A stretch of DNA of 64,000 nt, taken from the NCBI RefSeq assembly GCF_000003815.2, contig NC_049983.1:10855482-10919481 (forward strand). Direction: 5' to 3'. The notes beneath the pieces are model-generated. The model was not told the DNA's origin. It did no database searches and saw only the letters and a program-made list of their open reading frames with translations. Position 1 is the first letter of the stretch; each line of letters starts with the position of its first letter. The translations under genes and the position numbers were made by a program. Positions 29,396 through 60,457 of the stretch are shown here, piece after piece. The stretch is from Branchiostoma floridae (taxonomy: Eukaryota > Chordata > Leptocardii > Amphioxiformes > Branchiostomatidae).

Positions 29396-31891
29396 ATGGC
29401 GACAACAGAAGTTGTGAGCTGGCGTCCAGAGGACAAGGATGTCGGTTTGCGTTCAACAAAGACAAGCAGAGGACTGATGACATTCATTGTCTGTACAGTA
29501 ATATTTACCGCAATATATATTCTGCAGGCAGTGTTGTGGAGGTAACAATCTAAATAAATTTGTAGAATATTTTGATAGTCTAGTCTTGAGGTATGGATAT
29601 CTAATACAAAAGCGATCATGCCATATGGTTTTAGATCATAAGTCCGACTCCAAGGCGGGTCCCCGGGAGTGAGTTAAGCGACAAGATCATAATCTAATCA
29701 TGCATGAACTTTAAATTTGATGTCGTATATTGTACATTTTTGTTCTGATCACATGACTACGGTCAAACCTGTACTGGTGATCATCTTTGCGCGAAGACTA
29801 CTTGGAAAGTGTGATATGTTTTTGGCTACGTAATCCGTTAAATTATCTGTGCCACTGACACATGCATTATGAATCCAGTCTATACTGGTCACCTGTTTAC
29901 TGTGACAACTTCCTTTGAGTATACCTTGGGTGAGGACGTCGCTTTGGACACTTTTGATGGAATATTAACAATGCAACAAAAGATTCGCCCAATATTCGGT
30001 TCAGCCTTTGTTGAATCCTGATCTAATTGTATTTGAGAAAACAAAATATAGATGGTTATCCACCAATGCAAAAGTGTTGCTGCAAGTACATAATTCAATG
30101 CATATACAAAAAATTGTACTTTATCCCTGCAACCAGGTACTCGTTACACATGATGCCACAAGTCCCGTTGCGTCGGATAGAGAACAGAACAGCTCTCCGG
30201 ATCCACCCCGCTGGAACACTTCCTCGACCAACCGCAGCAAACATGAAAATAGGTGTTTCAACCTCCACTCGGTCAAAGCTACACTTTGGATCCTTGGCAC
30301 CAGATGCAGAATGGCAATTCAAACCTGAGGCCATGGAGAAAGTCAGGTTAGCACAGTTCGCATAGACGGTTTTGACTCTTGTAAAATCAGTCAGTAAGTA
30401 ATCTCTAGCCTGGTATCCGACAGCCGTAATATAGCTCCCGAGTCTCTCCTCTCCTCTTTGCAATTACAAAGAGGAGAGAAGAGACTCGGGGGCTATATTA
30501 CGGCTGGATACCAGGCTAGGTAATTTCTGTCGAAATCAGTTCATGTACTGGAATTGTTGGAGAATGGTTTGTCACCTTTCTATAAAATATGAATAGTTGA
30601 TCGTAGCCACATAATGAATAAGAGTTCGAAGACCTCATACCTTCATGAAAAATATAAAGTTGTTGTAGGTAACTGGAAGGGTACTACTGAGTGTGTGCAC
30701 TTTGATGGCATTAGAGCTACAGCCATACCTCTCGTAATGTCACATCTTTTTTGAATTTTTTCCAGAAATGTTACAAAGAAACTGCATCCTGACGTTCATC
30801 TCGTAAAGAGTATAAAGATGGAAAACTTTTCCCTAGACAAAACTGTTAAATGTGAAGAAAACGAAACAAGCACTTCCGATATCCACTGCCAGACAGACTA
30901 CAGCACTAACATTGGTCACTACAACACGTGTGCTGTGGTTGGCAATAGCGGCGTGCTTCTGGGAAGTCGTTGTGGTGCTGAGATTGATTCCAAGGATTAC
31001 GTCATAAGGATTGACATACCCCCCGTCATAGGATATGAAAAAGACGTTGGCAGACGATCCAGCATGACGGTACTCAACCTCAGCGCACCGAAACGGTTAC
31101 AGCGGTTTGCACGTTTAAAAAATTTAACACAGGGAGTCGAGAGTCACCTTAGGAACATTGGTGGCACTGCCCTGGTGACGGATAAAAGGTCAAGACGCAG
31201 AATGATGAGTTTGGCAAGAAAGTATCATCTCCCATTTTCTTGGTACACTGTCAAAGGAAGCTTAAGACGAGGGATCAATCCGTAAGTGTTGGTTTCTTAA
31301 GATGTGTATCCACGTTTCAATCATTCTTATTTTTATGCATACTCCATGTGATACAGATTGTCTCAGTGTGCTCTTGAAGAGAATATAATTTTCAACGTTA
31401 AAAAAAGTTGAAAAGAAAAAAAATATATAAAATCGTATGCAAAACGTATTGGGTTATAGATAGGTGTAGGAAACACTGTTTAAGTCATGACTATGGCAAA
31501 TACCATTCCCCAGTTACCAGTTCTGCATGTCAGTCTGAAGTAACATAGACAAAATTGTTCCTATTTCTACTGTTTTAATTTCACCTCCAGAATTGCGTCC
31601 AGGTTGGCGAACAGGAAAATGGGCGGGAATCCTACCACGGGACTGGTGACCGTTCTGATGGCGACAACGTTCTGTGACCACCCTTTCTTGTACGGCTTCT
31701 TCCCATTCCAAGAAGATGCGAAGGATACACCTATCCCTTATCACTACTATCCGGGAGACTACATGTACATCAAACCTATCAAACAGAATGAGGGAGGCCG
31801 TCATAACATGGCGCGAGAATATAACTTCTTTAGGAATCTACATAAGCAGGGCGTGCTGAAGATGCATGTCGGTTCATGCGAGGAGAAATAA
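29396..31891 (+). CDS. Alpha-2,8-sialyltransferase (ST8Sia-like), array gene A
   Basis: Predicted Golgi type II membrane enzyme that transfers sialic acid from CMP-sialic acid to glycans. Exons: 29396-29541, 30137-30346, 30766-31281, 31591-31891; all introns are phase 2, giving 390 aa. A cytosolic tail is followed by a signal anchor (about 30-48). The stem exon carries an NRT glycosylation site. Sialylmotif L spans 173-214 (CAVVGNSGVLL with C174, RCGAEIDSKD with C188). Sialylmotif S spans 306-331 (FCDH with C319, LYGFFPF). Motif III is YHYY (341-344), motif VS is H362-x4-E367, and the C-terminal Cys is C387. These are the ST8Sia hallmarks, including the Cys pairs expected to form disulfides. 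A two-codon insertion gives GDYMYIKP where all paralogues have GDYIKP, and one residue is lost near 244. It looks functional. Confidence 0.9.
30407..30517. mobile_element. Palindromic MITE, AGCCTGGTATCC family, copy 2 (intron 2 of gene A)
   Basis: The ends are agcctggtatccgacagcc and ggctggataccaggct. The inner arms are almost fully complementary around a centre of ttgcaattacaaag. This copy is better preserved than 20500-20619. It is absent at the same place in genes B to F, so it arrived after the gene duplications. Confidence 0.85.
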
Positions 31892-32399
31892 AGACGTTTA
31901 TAGCACACTGCTTTAGTCACCTTATCTTTGTACATAAGTGTATGTGTTTCATGCATACCAATATTATATCATGACTAGTTGAACTTGTGTCGCATCGCTT
32001 TCTTTCAAAATTTATAACCGCTTAATGATAAATGATCGGATTTGTGACATGTGTAAGCTAATCAAGGCCGAACATCAAAATGCATAGATTATGTAAATAT
32101 TCAAGTTATTTGCATAGCATCTAGATCTACAAACGCTTTAAATATTTCATGGAGGTATGAGGTCGCCGAACTCTTTTTACACTATACACTTTATACAGGT
32201 GCGAGTTGCGACTCTGGTATTCCAGAAGCGAACATATGAACGGACTACTGAATGCATGACAATGTATTTGCGCATTTACACGCCCAGTCCAGGAGTGGAC
32301 TACTATACGGATGGTACCCAGGCGAGGTGACCTCTCGATCACTGCGCTATTTTGCGTGTGTCGTGACGACGGTCGTCCACGATGCAAACTAACTGGTAT

Positions 32400-32593: not shown

Positions 32594-35236
32594 GTGAGTA
32601 GTTTTTACACTGTCTTTCATTAACACTACATGGTCATGTTTGATTCTGAAAGTAGAATATGAACTCAAACGAAAAATGAAATCTCTTTATTCAGAAAAGT
32701 CATTGTGCAGAAAAGTCATTACATGTGGACGATGTCATAACGTGGCAGGACTCTATAAATAAAATACACGTCGGCATATCATTGTAATATGTGCTTACAA
32801 ATATGACACCGTTCTGTCATAATACACGTGAGAACTGTACATTCATTCGTCTGAAAACTATAAATGTAAATGGGAACAGTCTATGGTGTAGCTATGTGGG
32901 ACCGTCGATTGTTTATTTTTATAATAGACATTGACGTGGCCACTGGTGAGTGAGTGATCGCAATTATAGAATGCTCTCAGGTGGAAACGCCTTCTGTTTA
33001 TGTTGAATCTAATCTCTAACCCTGTTTCTGTAGAAAGCACAGTACATATTTGGGAAATGTACACTTTCTCCAAGAACTACTGACTAACTTACATCCCCAA
33101 ATAGAGCAAACAAAAACGTGTTATGAAACCAAGAAACTTAAAGGCTTTTTGTCAAAAGGGAGCTGGGTGCGGAGAATGTAAACTTTGAACTTGTCAGAAA
33201 ATAACGAAGAATAAATCACACCGATTAGGTACTGCAAGTGTGGCCATGGCGGCAACAGAAGTTGTGAGCTGGCGTCCAGAGAACAGGGGTGTCGGTTTGC
33301 GTTCAACAAAGACGAGCAGAGTACTGACCACATTCATCGTCTGTACAGTAATGTTTACAGCAGTATATATTCTACAGGCAGCGTTGTGGAGGTAACAAAA
33401 TGCATTAATTTTGTAGAATAGTTTGGTCGTCTAGTCTTGAGGTATAAATATCTAATACAAAAGCTGTCGTGTGATATGGTTTTAGATTTTAAGTTCGACC
33501 TCAGAGCGGAAGTGGGTAAACGACAAGATCATAATCTAATCATGAACTTCGATGCCGTATATTAGGTGACCATCTTTGCACGAATAGTGGCAACTTAATG
33601 CCTACGTAATCGATATCCGTTAAATTATCTGTGCCACTGACACAAGCATAATGAATCCTATCTATACTGGTTGTATGTGTACTGTGACAACTTCCTTTGA
33701 AGATACCTTGAGTGAGGACGTCGCTTTAGACACTTTTGATTGGATATGTGTTTGTACATTGAAGGCATTGCTTGAATAGTACTAGTGACTGGCGAAGTAC
33801 AGTACATTTGTGATAAGAATATTAACTTTTTCTCCAATACAAAGCAACAAAGATTCGCCCAATATTCGGTTCAGCCTTTGTTAAATACTGATTTCATTGT
33901 ATTTGAGAGAGAAAACGTGTGGATTGTTATTAAACAATGCAAAAGTGTTTGGTACAATGTATACACTTTATCCCTGAAACCAGGGACTCGTTACACATGA
34001 TGCCACAAGTCCCGTTGCGTCGGATAGAGAACAGAACAGCTCTCCGGATCCACCCCGCTGGAACACTTCCTCGGGCAACCGCAGCTACATCAGCGAACAA
34101 AAAAAAGGATATTTCAACATCCTCTCAGTCAAAGCTACACTTTGGATCCTTGGCACCTGATGCAGCATGGCAATTCAGACCTGAGGTCATGGTGAAAGTC
34201 AGGTGAGCACAGTTCTCAGATTGTGCATTTGCATGGACGGTTTTGTAAAATCAGTCAGTAGGTATTATCTTCACTCCACCTACCCACCTACTAAATACCA
34301 TCGAAATCCATCCAGCGGATCTTGCCATATTCCCTCACACATAATTCATACCAAAACAGTAATGTTACATCCATTTTTCATTGAGATAAAAATGTCTAGC
34401 AATGATAAAGATTGAACAACTTTTGTAAATATCTTTCAGAAATTTTACAAAGAAACTGCATCCTGACGTTCATCTCGTAAAGGGTGTAAAGATGGAAAAC
34501 TTGGCCCTATACAAAACTGTTAAATGTGAAGAAAACGAAACAAGCCTTTCCAATGTACACTGCCAGACAGACTACAGCACTTACATTGGTCACTACAACA
34601 CGTGTGCTGTGGTTGGCAATAGCGGTGTGCTTCTGGAAAGCCGTTGTGGTGCCGAGATTGATTCCAAGGATTACGTCATAAGGATTGACATACCTCCTGT
34701 CAGAGGATACGAAAAAGACGTTGGTGAACGAACCAGTATGACAGTACTCAACCTCAGCACACCGAAACGGTTTCGGAGCTCTGCAAGTTTGAAAAATAGA
34801 ACCCAGGATGTGTACGAGAGTCGCCTGAGGAACATCGGTGGCACTACCCTGGTGACGGACAAAACGTCCAAACGTAGAATCAAAAGTGTGGGGAAGAAGT
34901 ATCATCTCTATTTTTCCTTATACTCTACCAGGGAATGGATGAGAGGCGAAATCAATCCGTAAGTGTTGGTTTCTAAATATGCATACACTACTTACAAATT
35001 AAACATGTTAATGGACGTTTTGGAAATGGCAAATTTCCAATATTGTACTATTTACAACTTGGGCAATTGTTATGAATGCTACACGTGTGCCTTGTAATAC
35101 GTGTAGGATAAGATCTTTAAAAAATTTACATGCCTCCAGTTACCAGTTTTTCCTACATGAAAGATGAAACATAAAGGGAACCTATCATTGTCTCTTTTTT
35201 TCTCATCTCCAGTATTGCGTCCAGGATAGCGAATAG

Positions 35237-35518
35237 TATCCTATTTGTCCTGGTCATCTATCCGCCCTCCGTTATAAAGTGATGGGGAATCGTCGTCTGG
35301 AGCCTAAAGTCACCTATGCGCTGAGACGACCGCCTACGAGCGGGCGTCTAATTCCGCGCAAAGCAGAAAAACTTACCGAGGGCTGGGCGGGTGGGTCGCT
35401 TCAGGCTCCAGACGTGGTCGGAGGGCGGCCTGATGAGTGACGAGATGCCTCTAATCTGCATATTTATACAATGGATGGATCACGTGTCTAACATCCGGGC
35501 GAATAGGCGACCAGAATA
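35237..35518. mobile_element. Short TIR element (internally deleted copy), 282 bp
   Basis: It starts tatcctatttgtcctggtc and ends gcgaccagaata. The imperfect terminal inverted repeats include CTGGTCATCTATCCGCCC against CTGGTCGCCTATTCGCCC. AATAG flanks it on both sides (35232-35236 and 35519-35523). Its first 52 bp equal the first 52 bp of the long element that follows directly, and its last 120-130 bp equal the end of that long element at about 42905-43028. It is therefore a deletion derivative of the same family. Confidence 0.8.
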
Positions 35519-36126
35519 AATAGTATCCTATTTGTCCTGGTCATCTATCCGCCCTCCGTTATAAAGTGATGGGGAATCGTCGTCTTCCGCCTTTGCCCTC
35601 TCTGGCTTCAGAGCCTTTCCTTTCCTGTCACCTAGTATCTTCCTCCGAAGACACTCTCCGAAGATATCTTCTCACTCCTTTTCCTGTTCACTCTTTCAAA
35701 TCATCTCCTATCTTGTCCCTCTCTCAACTTCCCATCCTTATCTTCGCTCTTTCACCTTTCTTCTCCCCTTACTCATCTTATCCCTTTCTTATTCCTGTCG
35801 ACTTGTCACCCTCACTTCATCTTGCCCTTCTCTAAACTTTATCGCTACGTAAAACCACACATTCCTAAGTATTCTCTCTCGTTTACCCAACGCTAATCAA
35901 CCCACTCTAATCTTACACATCGGTCAAACCATGAAGAGAAAACCAAACATAACTGAACCGTGCTCTGCACTGCATCTGGTAAATCAGCGCTGTGCGATAC
36001 AAAATCATTTGTGCACAAACGCACGTCATGCTGCTCACTTCTGTCCACACAGCCCGTTTCCCGCGCACACTCCTTAGCCAGGCCTCAGTCCGGCCCAGGT
36101 CCTTACGCACTTCCGCTTAACAAATC

Positions 36127-36266
36127 ATCCAGCCTTCCGCGGGAACCCATCGCACTGGATTAAGTCACAAAAGTAGATAAATCGTACAAGACTTCTCGGA
36201 TCGTCCAGCTTTCCGCGGAACCCCTTCGCACTGGATGTCGTCACAGTGTGTCACGAAAAACGTGCA

Positions 36267-36301
<35 letters not shown>

Positions 36302-36596
36302 TGGATCGCCCAGCTTTCCGCGGAAACCCTTCGCGCTGGATAATGCCACACCGGCTAAAACAACTGCATACTTTCCGAATCATTCAGCTTTCCGCGGCAC
36401 CCCGTCGCACTGAATGATATTCCACCGTACTGAGAAAGGATACACCGTCCTACACCTTCTCGGATCCCCGCACTGGAATAACGTTAGAAACAAACGAGTA
36501 ACTCGACGTGTTATTCACAAGGACGTCAGGCTAACACAGGGTTACTCGAATAATTCCGAACAATCCAGCATTCCGCGGCACCCCATCGCACTGGAA
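36127..36596. repeat. Array of about 35-bp hairpin repeats inside the TIR element
   Basis: Units are at 36127-36160, 36200-36236, 36304-36341, 36379-36418 and 36563-36596, with a degenerate one near 36455. Each has an ATCCAG-type start, a central TTCCGCGG, an ACCCC-TCGCAC block and a CTGGAT-type end, so the ends pair. In the fourth unit both ends change together (ATCATTCAG with CTGAATGAT). Spacing is about 75 or 105-110 bp. A run of about 29 T sits between units 2 and 3. Confidence 0.75.
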
Positions 36597-36678
36597 AACG
36601 AATTTCACAAATTAAGAAAAGAGGGCGGAAAACCTGCCTAACAAAGGAAACCAAAAGACTCACAGTCCGTTCCTTGGG

Positions 36679-36815
36679 CTGCCGGTGAAGTTGGATGAAC
36701 TGGCGGGCTGGGCGGTGTTGGGGACCGGAACGCCAGCCGGGCCTGATCCTCAAACTGCTGTTCCTCATAGCGCTGCGCCCTGAAGCCACCTCCTCGGACT
36801 TTGGTATCTGTTTTC
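36679..36815 (-). pseudogene. Possible captured host exon in the TIR element
   Basis: On the minus strand an acceptor-like ttttcaacaacag-type region leads into an open stretch reading TKVRGGGFRAQRYEEQQFED and then ARLAFRSPTPPSPPVHPTSP. It ends at a donor-like GGACT|GTGAGT. Composition and splice-like borders suggest a piece of a host gene carried by the transposon. The source gene is not recognised. It could also be a chance ORF in GC-rich sequence. Confidence 0.35.
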
Positions 36816-37236
36816 AACAACTCTAATCGGTGAAAGAAACAAGGTTCACAAAGAAAAAACATCACAGCCTAACAGGTTCCCTGGCGCGTCTTGTCCCCTC
36901 TCTGCTGCTGTAGCTTGTGCATGCCACCGACGGGTCCCATGGCCGCACATCTGGCGAGGTTTTTTTTTTTTTTTTTTTTTTTTTATTCAACATAAAAGCA
37001 GACAGGACAAAGTGACACTGCACTCAAGTTAAAAAACTTATTTTAACAGTGCCACTTAACATACATTTGAATACATGAATACAGATATAACAACATTAGA
37101 AAACAATAATTGAACAAACTAATCGACTAACATCGTGTGTGCACAAAACACCCCTACCCACCCCATGTACAAAGTACACAATTCAATGATGTATAAATGT
37201 AGTAAATTCTACATAGCATGAAATATGACAATATGA

Positions 37237-40200
37237 CTAAAAACGCTGAGTTAGATCAATGAACTTTTGAGTGAATAACATAAGCTTGGAATTGATTTCA
37301 GCATTGAATGTAGGCGAACCTCTAAGAACTATAGAAAGTTTCAGATTGTCGGAAATGGTGTCAAAATCAAGCAAGTGGTCAGTTAAATTAGATATATTGT
37401 TTAAAAGAACCGTTCTATGTTTATCAAACAAAGGGCAATCAAATAAATAGTGATAAATAGTTTCGGATTGGCACCCACAGACACATGATGGGCTTGGAAC
37501 CAAACCTCGTTTGAAAAGAGAATGATTAAGTCCGTAGGTACCAATGCGAAATCGAGCGAGAAGGGCGCAGGTGTATCGGGGCCCGGACGAGAAGTGTAAA
37601 GGACTATTGGGCCGAACTAGTTTGGTAAGGTAACTACGAAACATTGGATATCTCAGACAGCGAACGCTGGAGTCTAGTTCGTTCCAGTGACTTACGCAAT
37701 ACGGGACAAAGGATTTACTAAGTCTATTAGTTGAATACCTTGAAAGTCTAAAATTAAATTTGTTTCTTAAGTTATAAGAGGTTGTTTGAGTTATTTCGCG
37801 GGGAAGCAACTCAAGGAGATAGTTCCGTGTTAGGCCGTTGACAATCTTATAGAACAACAATAAACGGTGGTTATGTCGTCTGCTGGAGAGCGACTCCCAC
37901 CCCAATTCCTCACATACATTGGAATAAGAAGACCCTTTAATGGCTCCTGACACTACTATGGAACATTGGTATTGAATTCTCTCTAAAAGGGAGGATTGTT
38001 CTGCTGAACAGCCATGCCAAACTACGTCTGCATATTCCAGACTAGGACGGATAAAAGACTTGTATATAGTTTGTAAAACATGGCGGGGAAGTTTGAACTT
38101 AAGACATTTAAAAACATTAACCCTCTTCGAAACATTACTACATATATTGTTCAAGTGGTTGTTCCAAGACATATCAGAAGTTAAGATAGTACCAATGTGT
38201 TTATGAGATGAGACACTAACAATTTCGGCAGTTCCAAGAAAAAGTGGAGGGTGGTATTGAGGACTCTTTTTAGTGGTAAAACACATTTCTTCTCTCTTGG
38301 AAGGATTTAAATCCATCAACCATGTGTTTGACCATGCCAAAATTTTGGATAAATCGGAATTAAGCCTGTGTGCAGACGTGTATGGATTTTCAACAATCTC
38401 CAACAAAGAACTGTCATCTGCGAATAAAAAAGGAAGGGAATCTAATTCGTTTACAATGTCATTAATATATATGATGAAAAGAAGTGGGCCTAACACGGAA
38501 CCTTGTGGGACACCGGCACCGATCTCTCTCCAAGGAGAAGCTTGACCATCAAGAACTACTCTTTGCAGTCTTTCCGATAAATAACTAGAAAACCAGTTCA
38601 ATAAAGGACCTTCAATACCGTATTGTTGGAGTTTAAAAATAAGACCGGTGTGCCATACCTTGTCGAAAGCTCTAGAGAAATCTAAAAAAACTGCACGTAC
38701 CTCTTTTCCTTTGTCAAGTGCTTCTAGAATTAAGTTACATATGTAAACGAGCTGACAAGTTGTAGAGTCATTTTTCATAAATCCAGATTGGAAAGTGTAC
38801 AATAAGTCATTGGAAATTAGGTGATTATAAACATGTTTATATACAATTTTCTCCAGGATTTTTGACAAAGATGGCAGCAGCGAAACAGGACGGTAATTTG
38901 TTTTGTCACGAGAGTCACCTTTTTTAAAGATTGGAATAACATTTGCTTTTTTCCATACATTAGGGAAGATACCATGGGACAAAGACAAATTAAAAACATA
39001 CGCTAATTTATCAGAAATAAAGGGTGCTATCAACTTAAGAAAACGATTATCGATGTCATCATAGCCATGAGCCTTTGAGGACTCTAAGCAACCGATAAGC
39101 ATTTCAACCTCATCAGACGTAGTTGAAATGTATGTTGATTTCTCACTGGTGAGAAAGGTCAGATCAGGAAGGGCGGCATTGGATGTGTCTATTGTTGACT
39201 GAGAAGCAAAGAAGTCATTGAAAATGCAAGCTTTTTCATACGAGTCAACAATGGATACTAAGCCATTCAATAGCGGAGGTATGGTGCTGAAAGAATTACG
39301 TTTATAAAACTTTTTAACAATATGCCACCATTTCTTGGGGGCTGTTGAGGGGTTTGAAAGAGATTGAGCCAAACGAGATTCATAGTCAAACTTGGCCTTG
39401 GAGATTTTGTTGGTCAATTTGTTACGAATGTTTCGATATGCAATCCAATCAGCAGAAAAATTAGATTTTTTAGCTTTTTTATGAAACTTATCTCGTAAGT
39501 GCATTAATTTCCTGATGTTGGATGACATCCAGGGTTTGTCATTAGGTTTGATAGTTATAGTCTTATGAGGAATGCAGCTATATTTTGCCTCTAGAATAAG
39601 TTGTACAAGCTTACTAGTTGCTTCATCAACTGTTCCGCATCCGTATATATCAAACCACTTGGGATCTGACAGGAAGAAAGTAAGAGAATCATTATCGATA
39701 TTACTAAAGTCCCAAAAAGTTCGAGAATATGGTTTTGGAACAGAGACAAGAAAACTCATGTAACCAATAATAGGAGAGTGGTGACAATTGGACAGGGGGG
39801 ATAAAACAGACGTTTTTGTAAAGAACTCAGGTGAATCGGTAAAAATTAAGTCAATCAACGAGGGAGACTGTGAGAGGTCACAGGTCGGTTCGGTGATGAT
39901 CTGTTGAAGATTTACAATCTGAGTAGCTTGGCGTAATTTAGCACCGGCATAATTAACTGGGTCCAGGTGCCACCACTCATTGTGTTTGGAATTAAAATCA
40001 CCAGTCACAACAATGGCATCTGGGCGCTCAGAATGCGCCGTACTGACAGAGTCAATGAATTGATCCATGAAGTCATTAGTCATGGAAATATTCTGACCAG
40101 GTGGACGATAGTAAGTAGCAAACAAAATTTTAAAGATGCCAATCTGGAGTTCCAACCAAACACATTCGGACGAGATAACTTCAAGATCATCTCGTCTTTT

Positions 40201-40497
40201 ACAAGGAATAGTATTTGAAATATAAATGAGAACTCCCCCTCCGTGACGATTTCTGTCACGACGGATGGGAGGTTGGAAGCCATCTAATGAGATATCATCT
40301 GACTCAATGGAATCTCCAAGCCAGGATTCTGTGACAGCAACAATGTCAATATCATAATCAGATACGATCGCCGAGATTTCATCAAGTTTAGATCCAGCAA
40401 CAATACTGTTTACATTAACGTGCATGAAAGTCAAACATTTATTGTCTCCCGAGGTCCTCCTAAACCCTTGGGCAGTAGGTAGATTAACCATAATCAA
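37237..40497 (-). CDS. LINE ORF2: endonuclease and reverse transcriptase, 1086 aa
   Basis: The N-terminus (about 20-245) is an APE-type endonuclease with VTESWL, a GDFN block near 166, and SLIDLIFTD and HSPI near 213-242. The reverse transcriptase follows (about 500-800): VWKKANVIPIFKKGD, NYRPVSLLPSLSK, LDFSRAFDKV near 606, GVPQGSVLGPLLF near 663, and the catalytic FADDSS near 692. The C-terminus carries a CxCG-x-H-x-C zinc-knuckle-like segment (CVCGCQSETIYHYLFDCP). No RNase H is seen. The FADD form and domain order fit the CR1/L2 group. There are no interruptions. Small plus-strand ORFs over it are shadows. Confidence 0.95.
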   Translation of the reverse strand: MIMVNLPTAQGFRRTSGDNKCLTFMHVNVNSIVAGSKLDEISAIVSDYDIDIVAVTESWLGDSIESDDISLDGFQPPIRRDRNRHGGGVLIYISNTIPCKRRDDLEVISSECVWLELQIGIFKILFATYYRPPGQNISMTNDFMDQFIDSVSTAHSERPDAIVVTGDFNSKHNEWWHLDPVNYAGAKLRQATQIVNLQQIITEPTCDLSQSPSLIDLIFTDSPEFFTKTSVLSPLSNCHHSPIIGYMSFLVSVPKPYSRTFWDFSNIDNDSLTFFLSDPKWFDIYGCGTVDEATSKLVQLILEAKYSCIPHKTITIKPNDKPWMSSNIRKLMHLRDKFHKKAKKSNFSADWIAYRNIRNKLTNKISKAKFDYESRLAQSLSNPSTAPKKWWHIVKKFYKRNSFSTIPPLLNGLVSIVDSYEKACIFNDFFASQSTIDTSNAALPDLTFLTSEKSTYISTTSDEVEMLIGCLESSKAHGYDDIDNRFLKLIAPFISDKLAYVFNLSLSHGIFPNVWKKANVIPIFKKGDSRDKTNYRPVSLLPSLSKILEKIVYKHVYNHLISNDLLYTFQSGFMKNDSTTCQLVYICNLILEALDKGKEVRAVFLDFSRAFDKVWHTGLIFKLQQYGIEGPLLNWFSSYLSERLQRVVLDGQASPWREIGAGVPQGSVLGPLLFIIYINDIVNELDSLPFLFADDSSLLEIVENPYTSAHRLNSDLSKILAWSNTWLMDLNPSKREEMCFTTKKSPQYHPPLFLGTAEIVSVSSHKHIGTILTSDMSWNNHLNNICSNVSKRVNVFKCLKFKLPRHVLQTIYKSFIRPSLEYADVVWHGCSAEQSSLLERIQYQCSIVVSGAIKGSSYSNVCEELGWESLSSRRHNHRLLLFYKIVNGLTRNYLLELLPREITQTTSYNLRNKFNFRLSRYSTNRLSKSFVPYCVSHWNELDSSVRCLRYPMFRSYLTKLVRPNSPLHFSSGPRYTCALLARFRIGTYGLNHSLFKRGLVPSPSCVCGCQSETIYHYLFDCPLFDKHRTVLLNNISNLTDHLLDFDTISDNLKLSIVLRGSPTFNAEINSKLMLFTQKFIDLTQRF

Positions 40498-40718
40498 AAG
40501 TTACATGTATAGTGAAATTTACGATAATTCTGGCTTGGGAAAGGGTAGGTGGGACAGGCACACACATGAGAATATAAACGCACATAACAACACAAAATGG
40601 CAAACTGTTTCCGGCACAACTGTTGAGAAGAGCCCTAACAAATATACATGACATTCAGGGCCGCCGTTACCAGGCCATCATAAGTTTAGATAAAGCAGAT
40701 ACTTAACGGAGAAGGAGT

Positions 40719-41492
40719 CTAGTTGAAGTAGTCCTCAGGTGTTTTGAACTTCTTCCCTCCCGCAACGCAGAGGTACATAGTGACACCATCAAGTTTGAAC
40801 TTGGGCTTAAGGTCCTTGCTCCTTGCATCATGAAAGGCCGTCTTTAGCCGCTCTTTCGCCTTCTGGATGGGGATAGGAAGGTGAACACTGACACCGATGC
40901 CAGACTTCGGCTGGAGACGATATGCGTGGCGCAGAACAAGATCGCGATCCGTCATGGAAACAAACTTGGCGATGACTGGGTTGCCGCGCATCTTGGGTAG
41001 ACGGTGGACGTTAACAAAGGCGATACTCTTGACGTTGGCCACCTTCAGGTTATCCTCCATGAATTTGTAGGTTTTCTCAACTACATCTTCTTCTGTCTCG
41101 GCCGGTACACCCCAGAAGAGAAGATTTTGCTTCTTGGAATAGAGCTCCGATAACAGCAGTTTCTCCTCGAGGGCGATGACGCGCTCTTCCATTTTCTTGG
41201 TTTTGGTGGAAGTTTCTTGTTTGAGGGTATCGATCTCGTCGTGAGCGAAGGATACGCTCTGCTGAAGAGAAACAACTTCCTGACGCAGAGACTTCACGTC
41301 TTCACCCAAGTGATGAATTGAGGCATTTAACTTGTCAAAGCTCGCAGATGTTTTAGATGCAAATTCACTCAGGTGTGCAGCGATACTGGTCAGGGATACC
41401 TGCGATGCCATGCTGCTATCCTCTGAATCTTGCGCGACAGAGTCTCCAGAAGTAGGTCTGCGTTTCCTCTTAGGTTGCTTTCTACCCGGCAT
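40719..41492 (-). CDS. LINE ORF1 protein (coiled coil plus RRM-like), 257 aa
   Basis: This nucleic-acid-binding chaperone is expected to coat the LINE RNA. A basic start (PGRKQPKRKRRP) precedes a heptad-rich coiled coil at about 45-130. An RRM-like core begins at NLLFWGVPAETEED, and a basic C-terminal domain ends KFKTPEDYFN. This is the L1-type ORF1 layout found in several LINE clades. It lies upstream of ORF2 on the same strand, and the frame is uninterrupted. Confidence 0.9.
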   Translation of the reverse strand: MPGRKQPKRKRRPTSGDSVAQDSEDSSMASQVSLTSIAAHLSEFASKTSASFDKLNASIHHLGEDVKSLRQEVVSLQQSVSFAHDEIDTLKQETSTKTKKMEERVIALEEKLLLSELYSKKQNLLFWGVPAETEEDVVEKTYKFMEDNLKVANVKSIAFVNVHRLPKMRGNPVIAKFVSMTDRDLVLRHAYRLQPKSGIGVSVHLPIPIQKAKERLKTAFHDARSKDLKPKFKLDGVTMYLCVAGGKKFKTPEDYFN

Positions 41493-41636
41493 TGACTGGA
41501 GAAGGAGACAGTAACAACACTGGATGCCACAAAATGTCGGAATAAGAAAGAATTGGAGTCAAACGGCCCGGTATGGCGGGAGCTCCGTATCACACGTTAC
41601 GCTTCGCCGCCATCTTGAACAACCTCTGGCGAGGTT

Positions 41637-41711
41637 GATGGCGGCGTGTCCCGTAGCTGGCAGTGGTGTGTCCCGCGCATCCCTGCTGTCGGAGGGGGAG
41701 AGCGTCAGACC
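41637..41711 (-). pseudogene. Possible captured host exon, split by the LINE
   Basis: Read on the minus strand, an acceptor-like ttgttcatacag precedes an open frame GLTLSPSDSRDARDTPLPAT and then GHAAINLAR. The frame continues across the LINE target site into sequence at about 36880-36950 that encodes CAAMGPVGGMHKLQQQRGDK. Joining over the empty target site keeps the frame, so this was one coding-like stretch before the LINE landed. The family is not recognised. The capture idea rests on splice-like borders and open frame only. Confidence 0.35.
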
Positions 41712-43799
41712 TGTATGAACAACACGTGAATCATGAGATGGTGGGGAGGGACGGGCGCCCGGCAACAGGTCCGGTCCCAGACAGACAAGTCTAAAACATA
41801 CGCAACTTCCATACCGCCCAGATCCCACATGCGAGCGAGCCGCGTTACGTGGAGTAGTCGTGGGCCACGCGTGTCCACAACTCAGTCACCACACGCCTTA
41901 CAGGTGCACACTCATACACATGCAAACTAAAACAAATGGTAGCAGGAAACCCCAACACAGCCTCGACGTTCAAACTAGGAAAGCAAAAGAAAAATTCTAC
42001 CTGGCCACAAAAACGGAAAATGACACCCAAATCGTACCAACTGCAGCCTTCCAAGCTCAGATGGGTTGGCTGAACGCTACGCCAGGCTCTCCCAGAAGGG
42101 TGACATGTAATCCTAAAACAAAGAAACCAAGGGGGGTCGCCATCTTGCCTCCTGGATCATGCCATTGTCGTCCTCTGTTCCTGCCTGAAAAATTCACGGA
42201 AATCAGAAAATGACATAAAAATCTGGAAACTCGTTCTGCTCCACGCCTCAGCATTAAATGCCAACACCCACAGCTTTCTTGCGCAGAGGATTAGAGTGCT
42301 AGTGGATACCAAAACATAGCGAGGACAAAAGAATTCCGGAGAATCACCAGCTCGCCATGTGGGCACCAATTATCTGCTTGGAGTGGCTGTCGGGCCCTGC
42401 TCGGAAAACATACACAAGGTCACGAAATCACACAACAATCACTCAGCTCCACGCGGAGCCAAAACGCCAACGTGAACTAAAAGCGTCCTAAACTCGACCA
42501 GGCCTAGGATAAAAGGGAAGAAACTGTAAAACGAGAAAAAAAGGTGTAAAGCAGCCGTCCTCTGCACCAGGATCTTTCCTGCCCCGCCGCTCAGAAGCTC
42601 ATACATACGAATAGGCGATAGAAATGCAAATTAGAACGAACAGCCGGTACTCAGAAATTCCAGGCATGCTAGAAGAAAATACGCAACAATACACGAAAAG
42701 AAATTTTAAAATACGGGAGAAGCGCAGAAAATGTACCGACCGACCACTGGAAACCGACACCAAACCTTCCGTGGAAAGAACAAACGTCGACCTGACGGTA
42801 ACCACGCCGTGGCCGCCGGAGTCCTCGGGTTGACTCGTACCACCCTGCGGCGTCCAAACGCAAATCTTGCCGCCTCGGGAAGTTTTGTCTGCTTTGCGAA
42901 GGAGCCGTCGCTTCAGCTCCAGCCGTGGTTGGAGGCGGCCTGATGAGTGACGAGATGCCTCTAATCTGCATATTTATACAATGGATGGATCACGTGTCTA
43001 ACATCCGGGCGAATAGGCGACCAGAATAAATAGGAAAATGAATGGGAGTCCTACCACGGGACTTGTGACCGTTCTGATGGCGACAACGTTCTGTGACCAC
43101 CCTTACTTGTACGGCTTCTTTCCATTTCAAGAAGATGCGAAGAATGTATCTATCCCTTATCACTACTACCCGGGAGATTATATTAAACCTATTGAAGTGA
43201 ACAAAGGCCATCACCACATGGATCGAGAATACGACTTTTTCAGGGATCTACATAGACAGGGTGCGCTGAAGATGCAAGTCGGCCCATGCGGGGAGACGTA
43301 ACCACGTTTCTACACGAGCACACTACTTTGGTCGCCTTACATATAGTGTCTGTCATCCATATCTATCACGTGTAAATTCTCTGTGAAACTGATGCCAGAT
43401 CGAAATCACCTTATACGTCACTGTAGATGGAAATCCGCAATGTAGATTATGAAAGCTATAGCAACATTGTATATAATCAACAAATCAGGTACAGAATTAG
43501 ACATTTACTAACTTAAAGATGTTTATGCGCCTTATGGTGGAGTCCCAGGGTTACGTTCATGCAAGGAGCCTTTAGTTCATGCGACTGCATCGTATTCGTA
43601 AAAGTGAGATTCAAGGCAATGATGTAATCTGTCACGAAAAGCCTGGCGCCATACAACAGAAATAGCTTTTCTGACGAGTCTCTGGGCTGTAAAGGACATT
43701 TCCGATAGCAATACGCGTACGGTCCCGCTGTCATCTGCACTAGTTTTGTATGTCGTAAAATGTCGATCACGATACGTTTGACAGCATTATAACTACGTA

Positions 43800-44357: not shown

Positions 44358-47136
44358 ATGGCAACAACAGAAGTTGTGAGCTGTCGTCAAGAGGACCAGG
44401 ATGTCAGTTTGCGTTCAACAGAGACGAGCAGAGGACTGATGACATTCATTATCTGTACAATAATGTTAACGGCATTATGCATTCTACAGGCAGTGATATG
44501 GAGGTAACAAAATACATTTGTAGAATCATTTGGCCGTATTGTGTTTAGGTTTAAACTCTAATAAAAAGATGTATAATATTATCCAGTTTGATAGTCGAGA
44601 ATGTTACCACGACAGAAGGGTGTGAACGAAGAGGTTATGATCTTTAGCTTATCGTTAAATATCGAGCTGTATATCGCGTTACTTTTATCATAAGTAGGCG
44701 TGACTAAATCTAGCACCAACACAAAGTGTAGCATTTCCTGCGGTCGAACTTATAGTAGTAGCAAATGTTGCATGAAGACCACCTGGCAATTGTAACCACT
44801 TTTGGATAATGTAGTCGACTATCTACCACTCCCTTAGTTATTTGTCCCACTGCCACTGGCATTACGTACCATGAGGCATTATAAGGAAGGTGACCAGCTA
44901 AGTACAACACAATGCCATAAAGATTGATGAATCTTGGTTTCATTGTATTCTAGCAAACGTTCATATTGTTATTCACCAATACAAAAGAGATTCCGTGCAC
45001 AAACATGGCCCATACTTTATCTCTACAATTAGGAGCTCGCCATACACGCGACACGTCCCACCGTACCAGATTGGGAACAGATCCACGGTTTCATTTATGG
45101 CGAACAGGAAAATGGGCGTTGCAAGACTCCGTCGGCCAAGTCTAAACGTTGGATCCTTGGCACCGAACTCAAGTTCACAAGTCCGGATCCCGCCGTACCA
45201 GATTGGGAACAGGTCCACGGCTTCATTTATAGCGAACAGGAAAATGGGCGTTGCAAGACTCCGTCGGCCAAAACTACACTTTGGATCCTTGGCACCGGAT
45301 TTAGCATGGAAATTTAGACCTGAGGCCATGGCGAAAGTCAGGTTAGCACAGTTTCCAATGTATTTTGCATCGGCGGTTTTGTAAAATCATGCAGTCTGTG
45401 GGCGATATCTGTCCTAGGAACATTCGTAGTCATCTGTTTATGAAAGATGAGTAGCGATGAAACTGAATTACGTCCAACGATGGTGATGATGATAAGTAAA
45501 CAACGTGAATGATATCAAATCTGCGATCATATCTGTCACAATGTCACATCTTTAAATACATTGTATCTTTCAGAACGTCTACAATGAAACTGCATCCTGA
45601 CGTTCATCTCAGGTTATATAAGGTGGGCACTCAATACAAAAAGGATAATTGTAACGTAAACAGAGACATTTCCGAAGTCCACTGCCAGACAGACTACAAC
45701 ACTAAGATTGGTCACTACAACACGTGTGCTGTGGTTGGCAATAGCGGTGTGCTTCTGGGAAGTCGTTGTGGTGCTGAGATTGATTCCAAGGATTACGTCA
45801 TAAGAATCGATATACCCGTAGTCAGGGGATATGAAAAAGACGTTGGCCGACGAACCAGTATGACGGTACTCAACCTCAGTACACCGAAACGGTTACAGAG
45901 CTCTGCACGTTTGAAAAATAGAACCCAGGATGTGTACGAGAGCCGCCTGAGGAACATCGGTGGCACTGCCCTGGTGATGGATAAAAAGTCAAGACGCAGA
46001 ATGATGAGTTTGGCAAAGAAGTATCATCTCCCATTTTCCTTATACACTGTCAAAGGAAGCTTAAGACGGGGGATCAATCCGTAAGTGTTTTTTTTTAGTT
46101 GAGATGTGTGCTGAATTCATTGCTTAGAATTAAACATTTCAATCCACGTTTTGAAATTGTCAATTTTCCAATATTCTACAACTTTGAGAATCATGCATAG
46201 CATGTTGATTCATGTAATACCGGTTGCCACAGTTTGCTCTTGAAAAACGACCTAGGCCGAAGAGAATGTAAATTGCAAGGTTAAATAAAAGTTGAAATGA
46301 AATAACTTAACTTGAAAGTTCATCTGTGTTGGTAGAAGTCATTTTTAAACTAGTTTACTTTAATATCCAACACAAAAATTGGACTCACTCAAATTTTCGA
46401 CTGAACAGCACCAGTCTTTGTCAAGGAATAAACAAAGATGGTGGGCGCCATAGACTTCCTGCAACCTATGATTCACTGCTTACTGAGTCACGTGTTCTAT
46501 CTGCATAACGTGACGTCACGACAACAGTGGATTGTTCATTCCTAGATCCTTGACAAAGACTGGTGCTGTTCAGTCGAAAATTTGGGTGAGTCCAATTCTC
46601 GTGTTGGATATTACAGTTAAACTAGTTCAGAAATGAAATAACTATATTGTAATATCTATGTAACTGTATTAAAAACTACAATTTCCGTGCAATAAAGTTC
46701 ATTTATGTAGAGAGGTCCAGATAATACTGTATAAGTCAAGACCATGGCAAATGCCATTCCCCAGTTACCAGTTCTGCATGTCAGTCTGAAGTAACATAGA
46801 CAAAATTGTTCCTATCTCTACTGTTTTTATTTCACCTCCAGACTTGCGTCCAAGTTAGCGAAAAGAAAAATGGTCGGGAATCCTACCACAGGACTGGTGA
46901 CCGTTCTGATGATGACAACGTTCTGTGACCACCCTTACTTGTACGGCTTCTTCCCTTTCCAAAAAGATGCGAAGAATAGACCAATCCCCTATCACTACTA
47001 CCCGGGAGACTACATCAAACCTATCAAACAGAACGACGGTGGTCATCATCACATGAAGCGAGAATATGACTTCTTTCGGAAGCTACATAAGCAGGGCGTG
47101 CTGAAGATGCATGTCGGTTCATGCGAGGAAAAGTAA
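44358..47136 (+). CDS. ST8Sia-like sialyltransferase, array gene C, with duplicated stem
   Basis: Exons are 44358-44503, 45033-45341, 45574-46080 and 46842-47136; the product is 418 aa, the longest of the array. The signal anchor, motif L (CAVVGNSGVLLGSRCG), motif S (FCDHPYLYGFFPF), YHYY, VS (HHMKRE) and the last Cys (GSCEEK) are all present, so the enzyme should be active. The stem exon holds an in-frame 132-bp tandem duplication, with units starting at 45061 and 45193. Each unit encodes PPYQIGNRST, ANRKMGVARLRRP and a GSLAP end, so the stem gains 44 residues and a second NRS glycosylation site. Intron 3 contains a foldback element (46346-46628). Confidence 0.9.
45061..45324 (+). repeat. 132-bp in-frame tandem duplication in gene C stem exon
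   Basis: The string ccgtaccagattgggaacag starts at 45061 and again at 45193, exactly 44 codons apart. The two copies differ at several sites, mainly near the end of the first unit, where SLNVGSLAPNSSSQ replaces KLHFGSLAPDLAW. The other array genes have a single unit or a reduced one. Confidence 0.92.
46346..46628. mobile_element. Foldback element in intron 3 of gene C
   Basis: The left arm from about 46346 (aactagttta, aatatccaacac, attggactcac, caaattttcgactgaacagc, accagtctttgtcaagga) is the reverse complement of the right arm ending near 46628. The arms are about 90-100 bp with few mismatches, and the centre is about 90 bp with no ORF of note. Genes A, B, D and E lack it, so it is younger than the duplication. 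Confidence 0.85.
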
Positions 47137-48207: not shown

Positions 48208-48915
48208 GTGAGTACAATGTAGGTTTTACACTGTCTTCCATAAACGTTACATGGTCATCATTGATTCTGAAAGTAGAATATGAACTCATGAGAAAGACGT
48301 ATGTTCGGTTTCAATTGTGGACTGACCACACAGCGTGTGTAAAACTCTACGATGCTGTAACGTGGTGTAAAACTATATAGATATACAATATGTCAAATAA
48401 GTAAATAAGTTGGCATATCATAAGTTTTATAACACGTGCTGACAAATATGGCACGTGCAACCTTATACACATGTTCTGTCATAATACACGAAAGAACTGT
48501 ACATTCACTCATTTCAAGACTTAAAACTAAATGGGAACAGCCTAGAAGTTCACTACTTTCTAAAGCTAGGTGGGACCGTCCATGGTGTAATTTCAGACAT
48601 TGACATGATGCGTTCACTGGTGAGTGAGTAATCGCAATCATATAATTCTCTGAGGTAGACACGCCTTCTGTTTATGTCCAATGTAAACTGTAGAAAGCAC
48701 TGCACATGTATACTTTCCGCCAGATCTACTGACACGACTGCCTCACATCCCCAAATAGAGCAAAACGTGTTATAAAACCAAGAGACTTTTAAACTTTTGA
48801 CAGAAGGTAGCTAGATGAGAAAAAATGTTATCTTTGAAGATTACTTGTCAGAAAATAATGATGATATTTTAATAACCGTGATAAATCACACCGATTAGGT
48901 ACTATAAGTGTTGCC

Positions 48916-52708: not shown

Positions 52709-52867
52709 TGAATGACAATTTACTTGCGCTTTTACACGCCCAGCCCAGGCGTGGACTACTGCACTGATGGTACTCAGGCTAGATGACCTCTCGAGCACTG
52801 TGATATTTTTTTGTGTGTGACGTAATATGTCGCCCACGATGCGATTGACAGCAAACTAACTAGTATG

Positions 52868-53082
52868 CACCCCCGTGTTTGCGGTGGTTCATTCCATGCC
52901 TACTGTTCAGAAACAAATCTAACCGGTTACCCTGCGACCCTACTGACCTTTACCGTTAATTATGTCGTTTGCCTATTAAAACACGCTTCCAAAACAGATC
53001 ATGAACGTTGTCAGTCTGTCTCCAAACCCCAAGCTAAATTGCCGGCAATCTTAACGTCGTTTGTGTCTGAAGCATTGAAAAC
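52868..53082 (+). promoter_or_regulatory. Promoter cassette and non-coding exon of gene E
   Basis: AACCGGTT is at 52921-52928, a TATTAAA box at 52974-52980, and the non-coding exon ends at 53082 before gtgagtag. The spacing is the same as in D. The acceptor ccgattag lies before the ATG at 53804. Confidence 0.7.
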
Positions 53083-53803
53083 GTGAGTAGTTTTTATACT
53101 GTCTTCCATAAACATTACATGGTCATGTTTGATTCTGAAAGTAGAATGTGAGCTCATGAGAAAGACGTACGGTTGGTTTTACCATGGGTACCACACAGCG
53201 CGTGTAAAACTCTACGATCTTGTAACTTAACATGAATCTGTACAGATAGATAATATGTCAAATGGCTATATACGTTGGAGTATCATAAGTTATCACAATA
53301 TGACTATATCACACAATATAAGAATATCACAAATGACAAATATGGCTCGAGCAACCTTATACGCACATTTTCTGTCACAATACAGGAAAGAACTGTACAT
53401 TCACTCATCACAAGACTAAAAACTAAATGGAAACAGCCTACAGTACACATTTAAAGCTAGGTGGGACCGTCCTTGGTGTAATTTTAGTCATTGACGTCAT
53501 GTGTTCACTGGTGAGTGAGTAATCGCAATTGTACAATGCTCTGAGATAGACACGCCTTCTGTTTTTTTGTCCAATGTGAACACTGTAGAAAGGACTGCAC
53601 AGATTTGGGGAATGTTCCCAAGGTCTACTGACACGACTGCCTCACATCCCCAAATGAGAAAAACGTGTTATGAAACTAAGATTTTTTAACTTTTGACAAA
53701 AGGTAGTTGGATAAGAAAAAAATGTTGTATTTGAAGATAACTTGTCAGAAAATAATGATGATATTTGAATAAATCACACCGATTAGCTACTGTAAGTGCG
53801 GCC

Positions 53804-56088
53804 ATGGCGACAACAGAAGTTGTGAGCTGGCATCAAGAGGACAAGGATGTCGGTTTGCGTTCAAAAGAGCCGAGCAGAGGACTGATGACATTCATTATCT
53901 GTACAATAATGTCAACAGCGTTATGCATTCTACAGGCAGTGATATGGAGGTAACACAATACATTTGTAGAATCGCTTGAACGTCTAGTCTTGAGGTTTGA
54001 ATTCTAATAAAAAGAGCTATAATATTATTCAGTTTAATGGTTGAGAATGTCAGTAAGACAGAAGGGTGTGAAGGGAAATATCATGATCCTTAGCTTATCG
54101 TTAATTATCCAGCTGTAAGTTGCAGTATTTTAACTATACGTCGGCGTAAACAAATGTAACAAGACTCTGTCGCTGGAGGTTACCCTCCAGTCACAGAGTA
54201 ATATCAACACAAAGTGCAATTGCAGTCAAACTTTGTAGTGATAAACTGTGCATCAAGACCAACCGAAATTGTGACAATGTTTGGTTATGTAGTCGACTAT
54301 ATGCGATCCCCTTAGTTATTTGCCCCTCTGCCACTAGCATTACGTATCTTCATGCATTGTAAGGAATGTTTATAAGTGACCAGCTAAGTACAACACAATT
54401 GTGGTAAGATTCTACGTGTAACCTTGCTCTCCAACACAATGATGGGTGAGTCTTGGTTTCATTGTATTCGAGCAAACGTTCAGATTGTTATCCACCAATA
54501 CAAAAGAGATTCCGTGCACAAACCTGGCACATGCTTTATCCCTACTATCAGGGACTCGTTGCCACAAGTCCCGCCGTACCAGTTTGGAAACAGGACCATA
54601 GCAAGACTCCGTCGGCCAAAGCTACAATTTGGATCCTTAGCACCAGATGCAGCCTGGGAATTTAGACCGGAGGCCATGGCGAAAGTCAGGTTAGCACAGT
54701 TTCCAATGTATTTTGCATCGGCGGTTTTGTAAAATCATGCAGTCTGTGGGCGATATCTGTCCTAGGAACATTCCTATAGTCATCTGTCTATGAAATATGA
54801 GTAGTGATGAAACCGAATTACGTCCAACGATGGTGATGATGATATTAAGTAAACAACGTAAATCTGCAATCGTATCTGTCACAATGTCACGTCTTTAAAT
54901 ACATCGTATCTTTCAGAAATTCTACAATGAAACTACATCCTGACGTTCATCTCAGGTTATTTAAGTTGGGCACTCAATACAAAAAGGATACCTGTGAAGG
55001 AAACAAAGACATTTCCGAAGTCCACTGCCAGACAGACTACAGCACTAAGATTGGTCACTACAACACGTGTGCTGTGGTTGGCAATAGCGGCGTGCTTCTG
55101 GAAAGCCGTTGTGGTGCTGAGATTGATTCCAAGGATTACGTTATAAGGATTGACATACCCGTAGTAAGAGGATATGAAAAAGACGTTGGTGAACGAACCA
55201 GTATGACGGTACTCAACCTCAGCACACCGAAACGGTTACAGAGGTCTGCACGTTTGAAAAATAGAACCCAGGATGTGTACGAGAGTCGCCTGAGGAACAT
55301 AGGTGGCACTGCCCTGGTGACGGATAAAAAGGCAAGACACACAATAATGAGTTCATCAAGAAAGTATCATCTCCCCTTTTCTTTGTACATTGTCAAAGGA
55401 AGCTTAAGACGAGGAATCAATCCGTAAGTGTTGGTTTCTTAAAATGTGTATCGAATACATTGCTTAAAAATTAAACATGTTAATCCACGCTTCGAAATTT
55501 TCAATTTTCAATCATTTTACAACTTTTATGCATACTTAATGAGATACAGGTTGCCACAGTGTGCTCTTGAAGAGAATGTACTTTTCAACGTTAAAAAAGT
55601 TGAAAAGAAAAAAAATATATTGTATGCAAAGATATTGTATGCAAAACATATTGGGTTATCTGATAGGTGTAGGAACCACTGTTGAAGTCATGACCATGGC
55701 AAGTACCATTCCCCAGTTACCAGTTCTGAATGTCAGTCTGAAGTAACATAGACATAACTTGCTCTTATCTCTTCTGGTTTATTTCACCTACAGAATTGCG
55801 TCCAAGTTAGCGAACAGGAAACCGGGCGGGAATCCTACCACGGGACTGGTGACCATTCTGATGGCGACTGCGTTCTGTGACCACCCTTACTTGTACGGCT
55901 TCTTCCCATTCCAAATAGATGCCAACAATACACCAATCCCCTATCACTACTACCCGGGAGACTACATCAAACCTATCAAACAGAACGCCGCTGGTCGTCA
56001 CCACATGACGAGAGAATATAACTTATTTAGGGATCTACATAAGCAGGGCGTGCTGAAGATGCACGTCGGTCCATGCGAGGAGAAGTAA
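53804..56088 (+). CDS. ST8Sia-like sialyltransferase, array gene E
   Basis: Exons are 53804-53949, 54552-54689, 54917-55423 and 55794-56088; all junctions are phase 2 and the product is 361 aa. The N-terminal tail MATTEVVSWHQEDKDVGLRS precedes a signal anchor (FIICTIMSTALCILQAVIW). The stem is 46 codons with one NRT site. Motif L (CAVVGNSGVLLESRCGAEID), motif S (FCDHPYLYGFFPF), YHYY, HHMTRE and GPCEEK are complete. It groups with C and D through the shared exon 3 start (STMKLHPDVHL) and the GTQYKKD stretch. Intron 3 is almost the same as that of gene A. Confidence 0.92.
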
Positions 56089-56869: not shown

Positions 56870-56889
56870 GTTCTCTATAACTGGCTCAA

Positions 56890-58376: not shown

Positions 58377-60457
58377 ATGGTAACCAGTGAAGGAAACAAA
58401 GTCGTGGTCGTGAGTTGGCGTCAAGATGATCATCCCTCAAGAGTAGCAGACAGACGGCCATCTCCTTTCTTTATTTGTGCAGCAATGTTTACAACCGTAT
58501 GCTTTTCGCTCTCAATGTTCTGGGGGTAAATGATTATCATAACCATCTATAAAGTATTAGTAATAAATATATATATATCACTTTACGATCAGTTTTGATT
58601 TTTGTCCATTTGTGGCCTTTGTAGATGTGGGTAGAGTATGATACTATTTTATTTACTGCGATTATCAAACATTTAACTAGTATCTTCATCATATATACCG
58701 AACATCTTAATTGATCTATAAATTGTTTAGGTTTTCTATTTGTGAACAAATCTAACAAACAACGCATTTTGAGAAAACCTACCTATGCATTGCCTACATG
58801 GTACATTTCTTTTAATCATTAGTGCAACGTTGGAGGGTATACCACAATTCCTACCATATGCGATGCGGAACAAAACTGACCTCCATTCCGGTGCGATCCA
58901 TACTGATGCGAGGTTTTCCAGGCCCACCCTGGACTTTGGGAAGTTGGCACCAGATTCTAATTGGACATTCAGCGAAGAAGCCTTTGCGAAAGTTAGGTCA
59001 GTACTTGGAACCCATTTAGTAAAACCATTTAGCCCACAACTACTGTATCTTCAATGCAGTATCTCTGATAGGCAAGAAGAAAAAAAACGTTTACATGTCC
59101 CATTAACTGGCAATGCTTGTACACCGTTTCTCTCCCATGCAAACTATGGGGTATATAACCTGAATCATAACGAGTTTGATGAAAGATCCGCCATGTGTAA
59201 AATAAGAATGAGTGCGCACCCATTAGAAATATAAAGGGGTCGCTATAGAAAGCTACCTGTACACGATAGATTATGTAAATATTGCTCAATGAATGCAGTG
59301 GAAAATGAAACGCACTTCATTAGTCAGTGCCCTTACTACGAGGCCCACAGAAACAGATTATATCAAAACATGATTTTGCAAATAAACTCACAATTCTATA
59401 ACACATCATAACTTGATTACATACTAATTTGTGCAGTATTATACTTACGATGATTTCTTTAGGTCAAGACATGATATCATACTTTTTATGCAATTTGCAG
59501 AAGTGCTACAATGAGACTACATCCGGACACTCATACAACGAAGTTGCTGTTAGGAAAACTGCCCAACCAGACAGTCGGTGAGTTTGGCCACTACAACACG
59601 TGTGCTGTCGTGGCCAATAGCGGCATCCTTCTCGGAAGCACATGTGGTGGCGAGATTGATTCCAAGGATTACGTCATACGAATGGATTTACCTTTGATAA
59701 GAGGGTTCGAACAAGACGTCGGCAGCAGGACGAATATGACATTGTTGAACTCCAGCACGCCGAAACGAATCAAGCAGTCTTCACACTTAAAAGATAGAAG
59801 TCAAGACGTATACGAGAATCGCCTAAGGAACATTGAAGGCACTGTGCTAGTGGGAGGCATGCGTTCGAAAAGCGCAATCCGGACGGTGGTGCAATTGTAC
59901 AAACTTTCATTTCTTCTACTTACTACCCGAAAAAGCCAAAAGTCAGGGCTCAACAAGTAAGTTATATTTCTCTTCATACATTAATACGCATTGAAATACA
60001 GCATGCATGGATATAGTTGCAGTTAATTGGGGAGTGAATTTAGGCTTCTGCTGTAATAGATAAAGAGCATCGTGCATTATTGTCATTAAAGCTTAACTGT
60101 ATTGAATAATTTTGTTTAGACCTTTGTTCTTCTAATTTATGATTTTTTTCATTGCACAGGCTTGCGACAAAGTTAGGAAACAAGAAATTTGGTGGAAATC
60201 CTACTCTGGGCCTGGTGACCGTTCTGATGATGACAACATTCTGTGACCACCCTTACTTGTACGGCTTCTTCCCATTCCAAAAAGATGCGAAGAATACATC
60301 TATCCCTTATCACTACTACCCGGGAGACTACATTAAACCTACCATACAGAATGAGGGGGGCCATCATCACATGGCACGAGAATACGACTTTTTTAGGGGT
60401 CTACACAAGCAGGGGGTGCTGAAGATGCAAGTCGGTCCATGTATGAAGAGGAGATGA
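58377..60457 (+). CDS. ST8Sia-like sialyltransferase, divergent array gene F
   Basis: Exons are 58377-58525, 58823-58996, 59501-59956 and 60160-60457, with the same phase-2 layout; the product is 358 aa. The N-terminus is unlike A-E (MVTSEGNKVVVVSWRQDD) but keeps the VSWR motif before the anchor (PFFICAAMFTTVCFSLSMFW). The stem has an NKT and an NWT site. Motif L reads CAVVANSGILLGSTCGGEID, so the usual VVGNSG is VVANSG. Exon 3 is shorter (456 nt) because the Cys-containing stretch between the exon start and HYNTC is reduced. Motif S (FCDHPYLYGFFPF), YHYY, HHMARE and GPC are intact. It is the outgroup of the array and is probably functional. Confidence 0.9.

Follow-up and report, generated by a model that had tools for sequence, protein, structure and literature searches.

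A tandem array of six ST8Sia-type sialyltransferase genes in amphioxus, probably of the EX group, with one copy broken by a retrotransposon

Introduction

Six genes resembling ST8Sia sialyltransferases stand head to tail on the + strand, between positions 29396 and 60457, in a stretch of 64,000 nucleotides from Branchiostoma floridae (the window, in what follows). How did so many copies come to lie at one locus, to which branch of the family do they belong, and are their products likely to be enzymes?

That ST8Sia genes have multiplied in amphioxus has been in print since 2008, which weakens the notability of the expansion: our main conclusion is not new. The main text of PMC2564942 (2008) reports a group of ST8Sia genes, termed EX, from B. 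floridae and Strongylocentrotus purpuratus, attributes most of them to tandem duplication in the amphioxus lineage, and maps EX genes to scaffold 66 alongside other ST8Sia genes. In that text the EX group is a branch (Bfl-0, -1, -2 and -5) outside the vertebrate subfamilies, linkages other than alpha2,8 (e.g. alpha2,9) are raised for its enzymes, and no motif is given that sets the group apart. A review (PMC10225777, 2023) repeats the four amphioxus groups in its text, and both sources describe multi-copy ST8Sia genes in amphioxus together with one group lost by vertebrates. Our reading, to which we assign a probability of about 0.85, is that the locus is a tandem array of six ST8Sia-type GT29 genes, probably EX, produced by unequal crossing-over and with some homogenisation of exon 4.

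Results

Organization of the array

The six gene models are:

29396..31891, + strand: gene A, ST8Sia-like; exons 29396-29541, 30137-30346, 30766-31281, 31591-31891; 390 aa
33246..43301, + strand: gene B, ST8Sia-like, broken; open exons 33246-33391, 33984-34202, 34440-34958
44358..47136, + strand: gene C; exons 44358-44503, 45033-45341, 45574-46080, 46842-47136; 418 aa
48916..51237, + strand: gene D; exons 48916-49061, 49640-49759, 49994-50500, 50913-51237; 365 aa
53804..56088, + strand: gene E; exons 53804-53949, 54552-54689, 54917-55423, 55794-56088; 361 aa
58377..60457, + strand: gene F, the most divergent copy; exons 58377-58525 (candidate), 58823-58996, 59501-59956, 60160-60457; 358 aa

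These models yield five open spliced products (A, C, D, E and F); gene B is interrupted in exon 4. All 18 introns of the six genes can be written as GT-AG introns in phase 2, a statement that is partly built in because phase 2 was required when choosing the six exon-2 acceptors and exon 1 of F (58377-58525); the phase of introns 2 and 3 follows from the exon sequences themselves. Successive gene starts are separated by 3850, 11112 (3315 without the insertion in B), 4558, 4888 and 4573 bp. The original prediction of six same-strand, four-exon genes – five intact and one broken by a transposon – is therefore borne out by the exon models, and its coordinates hold. The start-to-start spacing of 3.3-4.9 kb that it gave once the insertion is removed agrees with the recomputed values, and its phase-2 introns can be written throughout, with the qualification just made for the exon-2 acceptors and exon 1 of F.

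Exon 2 has a different length in each of the six copies. That of gene C contains an in-frame duplication (45056-45297; 110 bp, 93% identical, offset 132 bp). A tblastn search of the whole window with the six products (for B, exons 1-3 alone) revealed no further copies or fragments: all 23 merged regions (E 1e-3) overlap the exons of the array. Elsewhere in the window are:

11670-11957: ORF matching no Pfam family
11737-13379: direct repeats in a cluster, 78-88% identical, at offsets of 320 bp or more
15119-15436 and 20798-21040, - strand: pieces of a P-loop NTPase (NUBPL/Mrp type, PF10609)
25158-25838, + strand: enoyl-CoA hydratase ORF upstream of the array (PF00378, E 3.9e-82)
27266-27527, - strand: ORFs resembling, by eye, a reverse-transcriptase fragment
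62321-63157: ORF matching no Pfam family
62569-63000: 147-bp tandem repeat in three copies, within the preceding ORF

Scans of the whole window with Rfam (gathering threshold) and for tRNAs gave no matches.

Sialyltransferase family and motifs

Each of the eight array ORFs submitted to Pfam matched PF00777, the GT29 sialyltransferase domain: the six from exon 3 with E values of 1e-25 to 3e-24, and the two tried from exon 4 (B and F) with 8.7e-15 and 7e-13. Sialylmotifs L, S, III and VS are found in the array genes. Motif S reads GFFPF in every copy (+ strand; 31694, 43113, 46945, 51019, 55897, 60263). The LHxQG tail is likewise present in all six (a further, chance match lies on the - strand at 56397) and is followed in each by VGxC, the C-terminal Cys of ST8Sia, which is predicted to pair with the Cys of motif L. 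The VS pattern HxxxxE occurs in all five spliced products, and the exon-4 piece of B reads HHMDRE; the histidine of GT29 enzymes is thus present at the residue level, and its role as catalytic base is predicted. The strict motif-L pattern fits five copies. Gene F lies outside it, with CAVVANSG as against CAVVGNSG in the others. In motif III the last place is P (HYYP). Where the family motif NPSI would be expected (alignment by eye), A, C, D and E have NPIAS or NPLAS, spanning the junction of exons 3 and 4, and F has NKLAT; B is broken close by. In each intact product the strongest hydrophobic segment is near the N-terminus. Since motif and Pfam matches recur in six copies, the array is far beyond chance.

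Comparison with solved structures was made with gene E alone as the query. The best relative in the PDB is ST8SIA3 (5bo6, E 3.7e-25), which we take to be the human enzyme; ST6GALNAC2 is next (E 5.2e-16). Within the ST8Sia family, the PDB searches yielded only ST8SIA3 and PSTD peptides of a polysialyltransferase. Gene E and ST8SIA3 agree in motif L (CAVVGNSG), motif S, YHYY, HxxxxE, the motif cysteines and the C-terminal Cys, in an alignment spanning motif L to that last residue. They differ in that ST8SIA3 has GFWPF and HYYD where the array has GFFPF and HYYP, and in that the array copies, by eye, are without the NRYW-like stretch upstream of motif S. GFWPF is the published ST8Sia family motif and is also present in a zebrafish protein; GFFPF is one residue away in all six copies, a mismatch that we do not treat as a bar to ST8Sia membership.

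Could the array instead represent another GT29 family, of the ST6GalNAc type? The second place of ST6GALNAC2 in the search speaks for such an assignment. The match to ST8SIA3 is nonetheless the stronger one, carrying through GFxPF, YHYY and HxxxxE to the C-terminal Cys, and the array possesses the C-terminal motif that the main text of PMC2564942 describes as specific to ST8Sia; an ST6GalNAc identity is thus the least probable of the readings considered here. The ST8Sia call of the original prediction is upheld by this alignment of gene E. Its motifs L, S and VS and its ST8Sia-type C-terminal end are present in every copy (with the deviation of F in motif L), as is its GFFPF; its further claim, that vertebrate ST8Sia enzymes have GFWPF, holds for ST8SIA3 and the zebrafish protein, the sole ones compared.

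A polybasic region precedes motif S. In all five intact copies the 35 residues before the motif are free of acidic residues and have a net charge of +6 to +8; the corresponding charge in ST8SIA3 is +6. The PSTD of human ST8SIA4 (PDB 6ahz) is a basic stretch in the same place, also without acidic residues, with a charge of +9, and its sequence shows by eye no recognisable likeness to that of the array. Nor, by eye, is the PSTD consensus of the polysialyltransferases (ST8Sia II/IV) found upstream of motif S. The region is compatible, as far as its composition goes, with the handling of acidic chains; it offers no evidence of polysialylation.

Divergence of the copies

The 10 pairs that can be formed from A-E have protein identities of 65.7-85.6%, and the five pairs with F, 48.6-59.1%; where B is involved, the comparison is limited to exons 1-3. 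When all exons are taken together, dS ranges from 0.22 to 0.39 within A-E and from 0.80 to 1.16 for F pairs (dS is saturated in exon 2 of E-F), and dN/dS lies between 0.26 and 0.56 across the 15 pairs. In every pair pS exceeds pN: of 2000 bootstraps per pair, two had pS<=pN for A-E and none for the other 14 pairs. Homology at the DNA level runs past the exons and is longest between D and E (47934-51204 vs 52808-56082; 3376 aligned positions, 84% identical). A repeat piece upstream of gene A (27557-27703) is also present between the array genes, at 32.4, 43.8, 48.0 and 52.9 kb, with 72-76% identity; its position suggests that the duplication unit once extended further.

Highly heterozygous marine genomes are prone to tandem misplacement of haplotypes, and divergence between alleles is expected at a few percent. 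It might thus be considered that the assembly has inflated the array by setting the allelic haplotypes of just one or two genes side by side, and the long homologous unit common to D and E could be taken in favour of such an artefact. However, that unit is just 84% identical, the dS values are far above the allelic level in all pairs, and the length of exon 2 is unique to each copy; we judge it to be very improbable. Indeed, the values of dS, the excess of pS over pN, the protein identities and the homology outside exons together mean that allelic copies offer no easy explanation, and they are in keeping with unequal crossing-over. Within the window, the lineage-specific tandem expansion that had been proposed is upheld by the identities, the common exon structure and the DNA homology past exons.

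A second alternative concerns function: most of the copies may be paralogues in decay or already inactive, contributing little as enzymes. One of the six is broken, and pairwise dN/dS is fairly high, its upper values being compatible with a relaxation of constraint in part of the copies. The length of exon 2 is unstable, and deviations occur in motif III and in the motif L of F; HYYP or CAVVANSG could alter or abolish activity. Against general decay, five of the six copies are fully open and retain the catalytic and cysteine residues, and synonymous change is in excess in all 15 pairs. We consider widespread inactivity improbable.

Exon 4 of gene F

Divergence is not uniform along the genes. 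All five pairs with F have a smaller synonymous difference in exon 4 than in exon 3 (A-F, for example: 0.292 vs 0.566). Of 5000 shuffles each, those reaching the observed drop numbered 4 (A), 15 (B), 24 (C), 253 (D) and 27 (E), the five pairs being mutually non-independent. Among the 10 pairs without F, exon 4 is higher in eight and slightly lower in two (A-C and C-E), and none has a drop beyond chance (1632 to 4980 of 5000 shuffles). Because exon 4 is more diverged than exon 3 in B-D (4980) and B-C (4841), exon 4 of B is itself unusual.

A tree of exon 4 groups that of B with that of F (support 83), and the branch to F, 0.63 in exons 1+3, shortens to 0.12 in exon 4. In AU tests, the tree of exon 4 is rejected by exons 1+3 (p 0.024), and that of exons 1+3 is not rejected by exon 4 (p 0.077). 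The difference in topology is thus weak, and the contrast in branch length and synonymous divergence is the stronger evidence for exchange. In the comparison of exon 4 of F, DNA similarity ends close to the exon edges. Selection on synonymous sites would be another way to account for the low synonymous divergence of this exon; we favour an old conversion or exchange in which the fourth exons of B and F took part.

Loss of gene B

Exon 4 of gene B has its acceptor, begins at 35213, is cut after 24 bp by an insertion from 35237, and resumes past 43033 to end in a stop at 43301. The insertion, 7.8 kb in length, comprises two elements:

35237..35518, - strand: short 282-bp element, both ends common to the long insertion, AATAG on either side
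35524..43028, - strand: non-LTR retrotransposon of 7.5 kb, AATAG on either side

AATAG is found before, between and after them. The longer element carries a 1087-aa ORF (37240-40500, - strand) with endonuclease and reverse-transcriptase domains (PF03372, PF14529, PF00078) and, upstream of it on the same strand, a second ORF of 279 aa (40722-41558) that matches no Pfam family. An LTR or DNA element had been considered on account of the recurring ends and the AATAG repeats; the endonuclease and reverse-transcriptase domains rule this out and identify a non-LTR retrotransposon with a short relative beside it. The two lie head to tail in one target (35237-43033), an arrangement that possibly reflects template jumping of a non-LTR element or else two insertions in one site.

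Gene B was lost through this insertion, and the event was probably recent, as suggested by the long ORF still being open. A CCAG at the end of the element offers, by eye, an acceptor with an exon start at 43025, in phase with exon 3 of B. No pyrimidine tract was seen before it, and the resulting protein would fall short of its neighbours by several residues: splicing of B past the insertion is unlikely.

Discussion

The array is probably part of the ST8Sia EX expansion already described. The likeness is one of description: as set out in the main text of the 2008 paper, EX genes are ST8Sia-type genes of invertebrate deuterostomes, multiplied in tandem and bearing the C-terminal motif, and the same is true of the array. 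That main text (figures and supplements apart) contains no use of exon, intron, GFFPF, gene conversion, pseudogene or retrotransposon. GFFPF, HYYP, the low synonymous divergence of F exon 4 and the loss of B were not found in the parts of the published text examined; our literature search returned no paper on GFFPF, which says little, since the search did not extend to sequences in figures.

We propose that the array grew by successive rounds of unequal crossing-over, with a unit of 3-5 kb, and that exon 4 may have undergone some homogenisation between copies. The intact products are predicted type II Golgi membrane proteins, in which exon 1 would supply the signal anchor, exon 2 a variable stem and exon 3 the CMP-sialic-acid binding motif L; exon 4 would carry motifs S, III and VS and the C-terminus. 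With the VS histidine as putative catalytic base, sialic acid would be moved onto a terminal sialic acid. Vertebrate ST8Sia relatives form the alpha2,8 linkage. Most likely, then, the array encodes Golgi enzymes predicted to add sialic acid to sialic acid, in alpha2,8 or another linkage.

A narrower version of this proposal is unlikely: that the enzymes transfer sialic acid onto sialic acid but with an altered acceptor or linkage (e.g. alpha2,9). Gene conversion of exon 4 would then keep GFFPF and HYYP uniform across the copies, and the anchor and stem encoded by exons 1 and 2 would diversify. For the expansion as a whole, the exact map of the array, the copy lost to a retrotransposon and the possible conversion of exon 4 provide concrete constructs with which the products of the extra enzymes may be probed.
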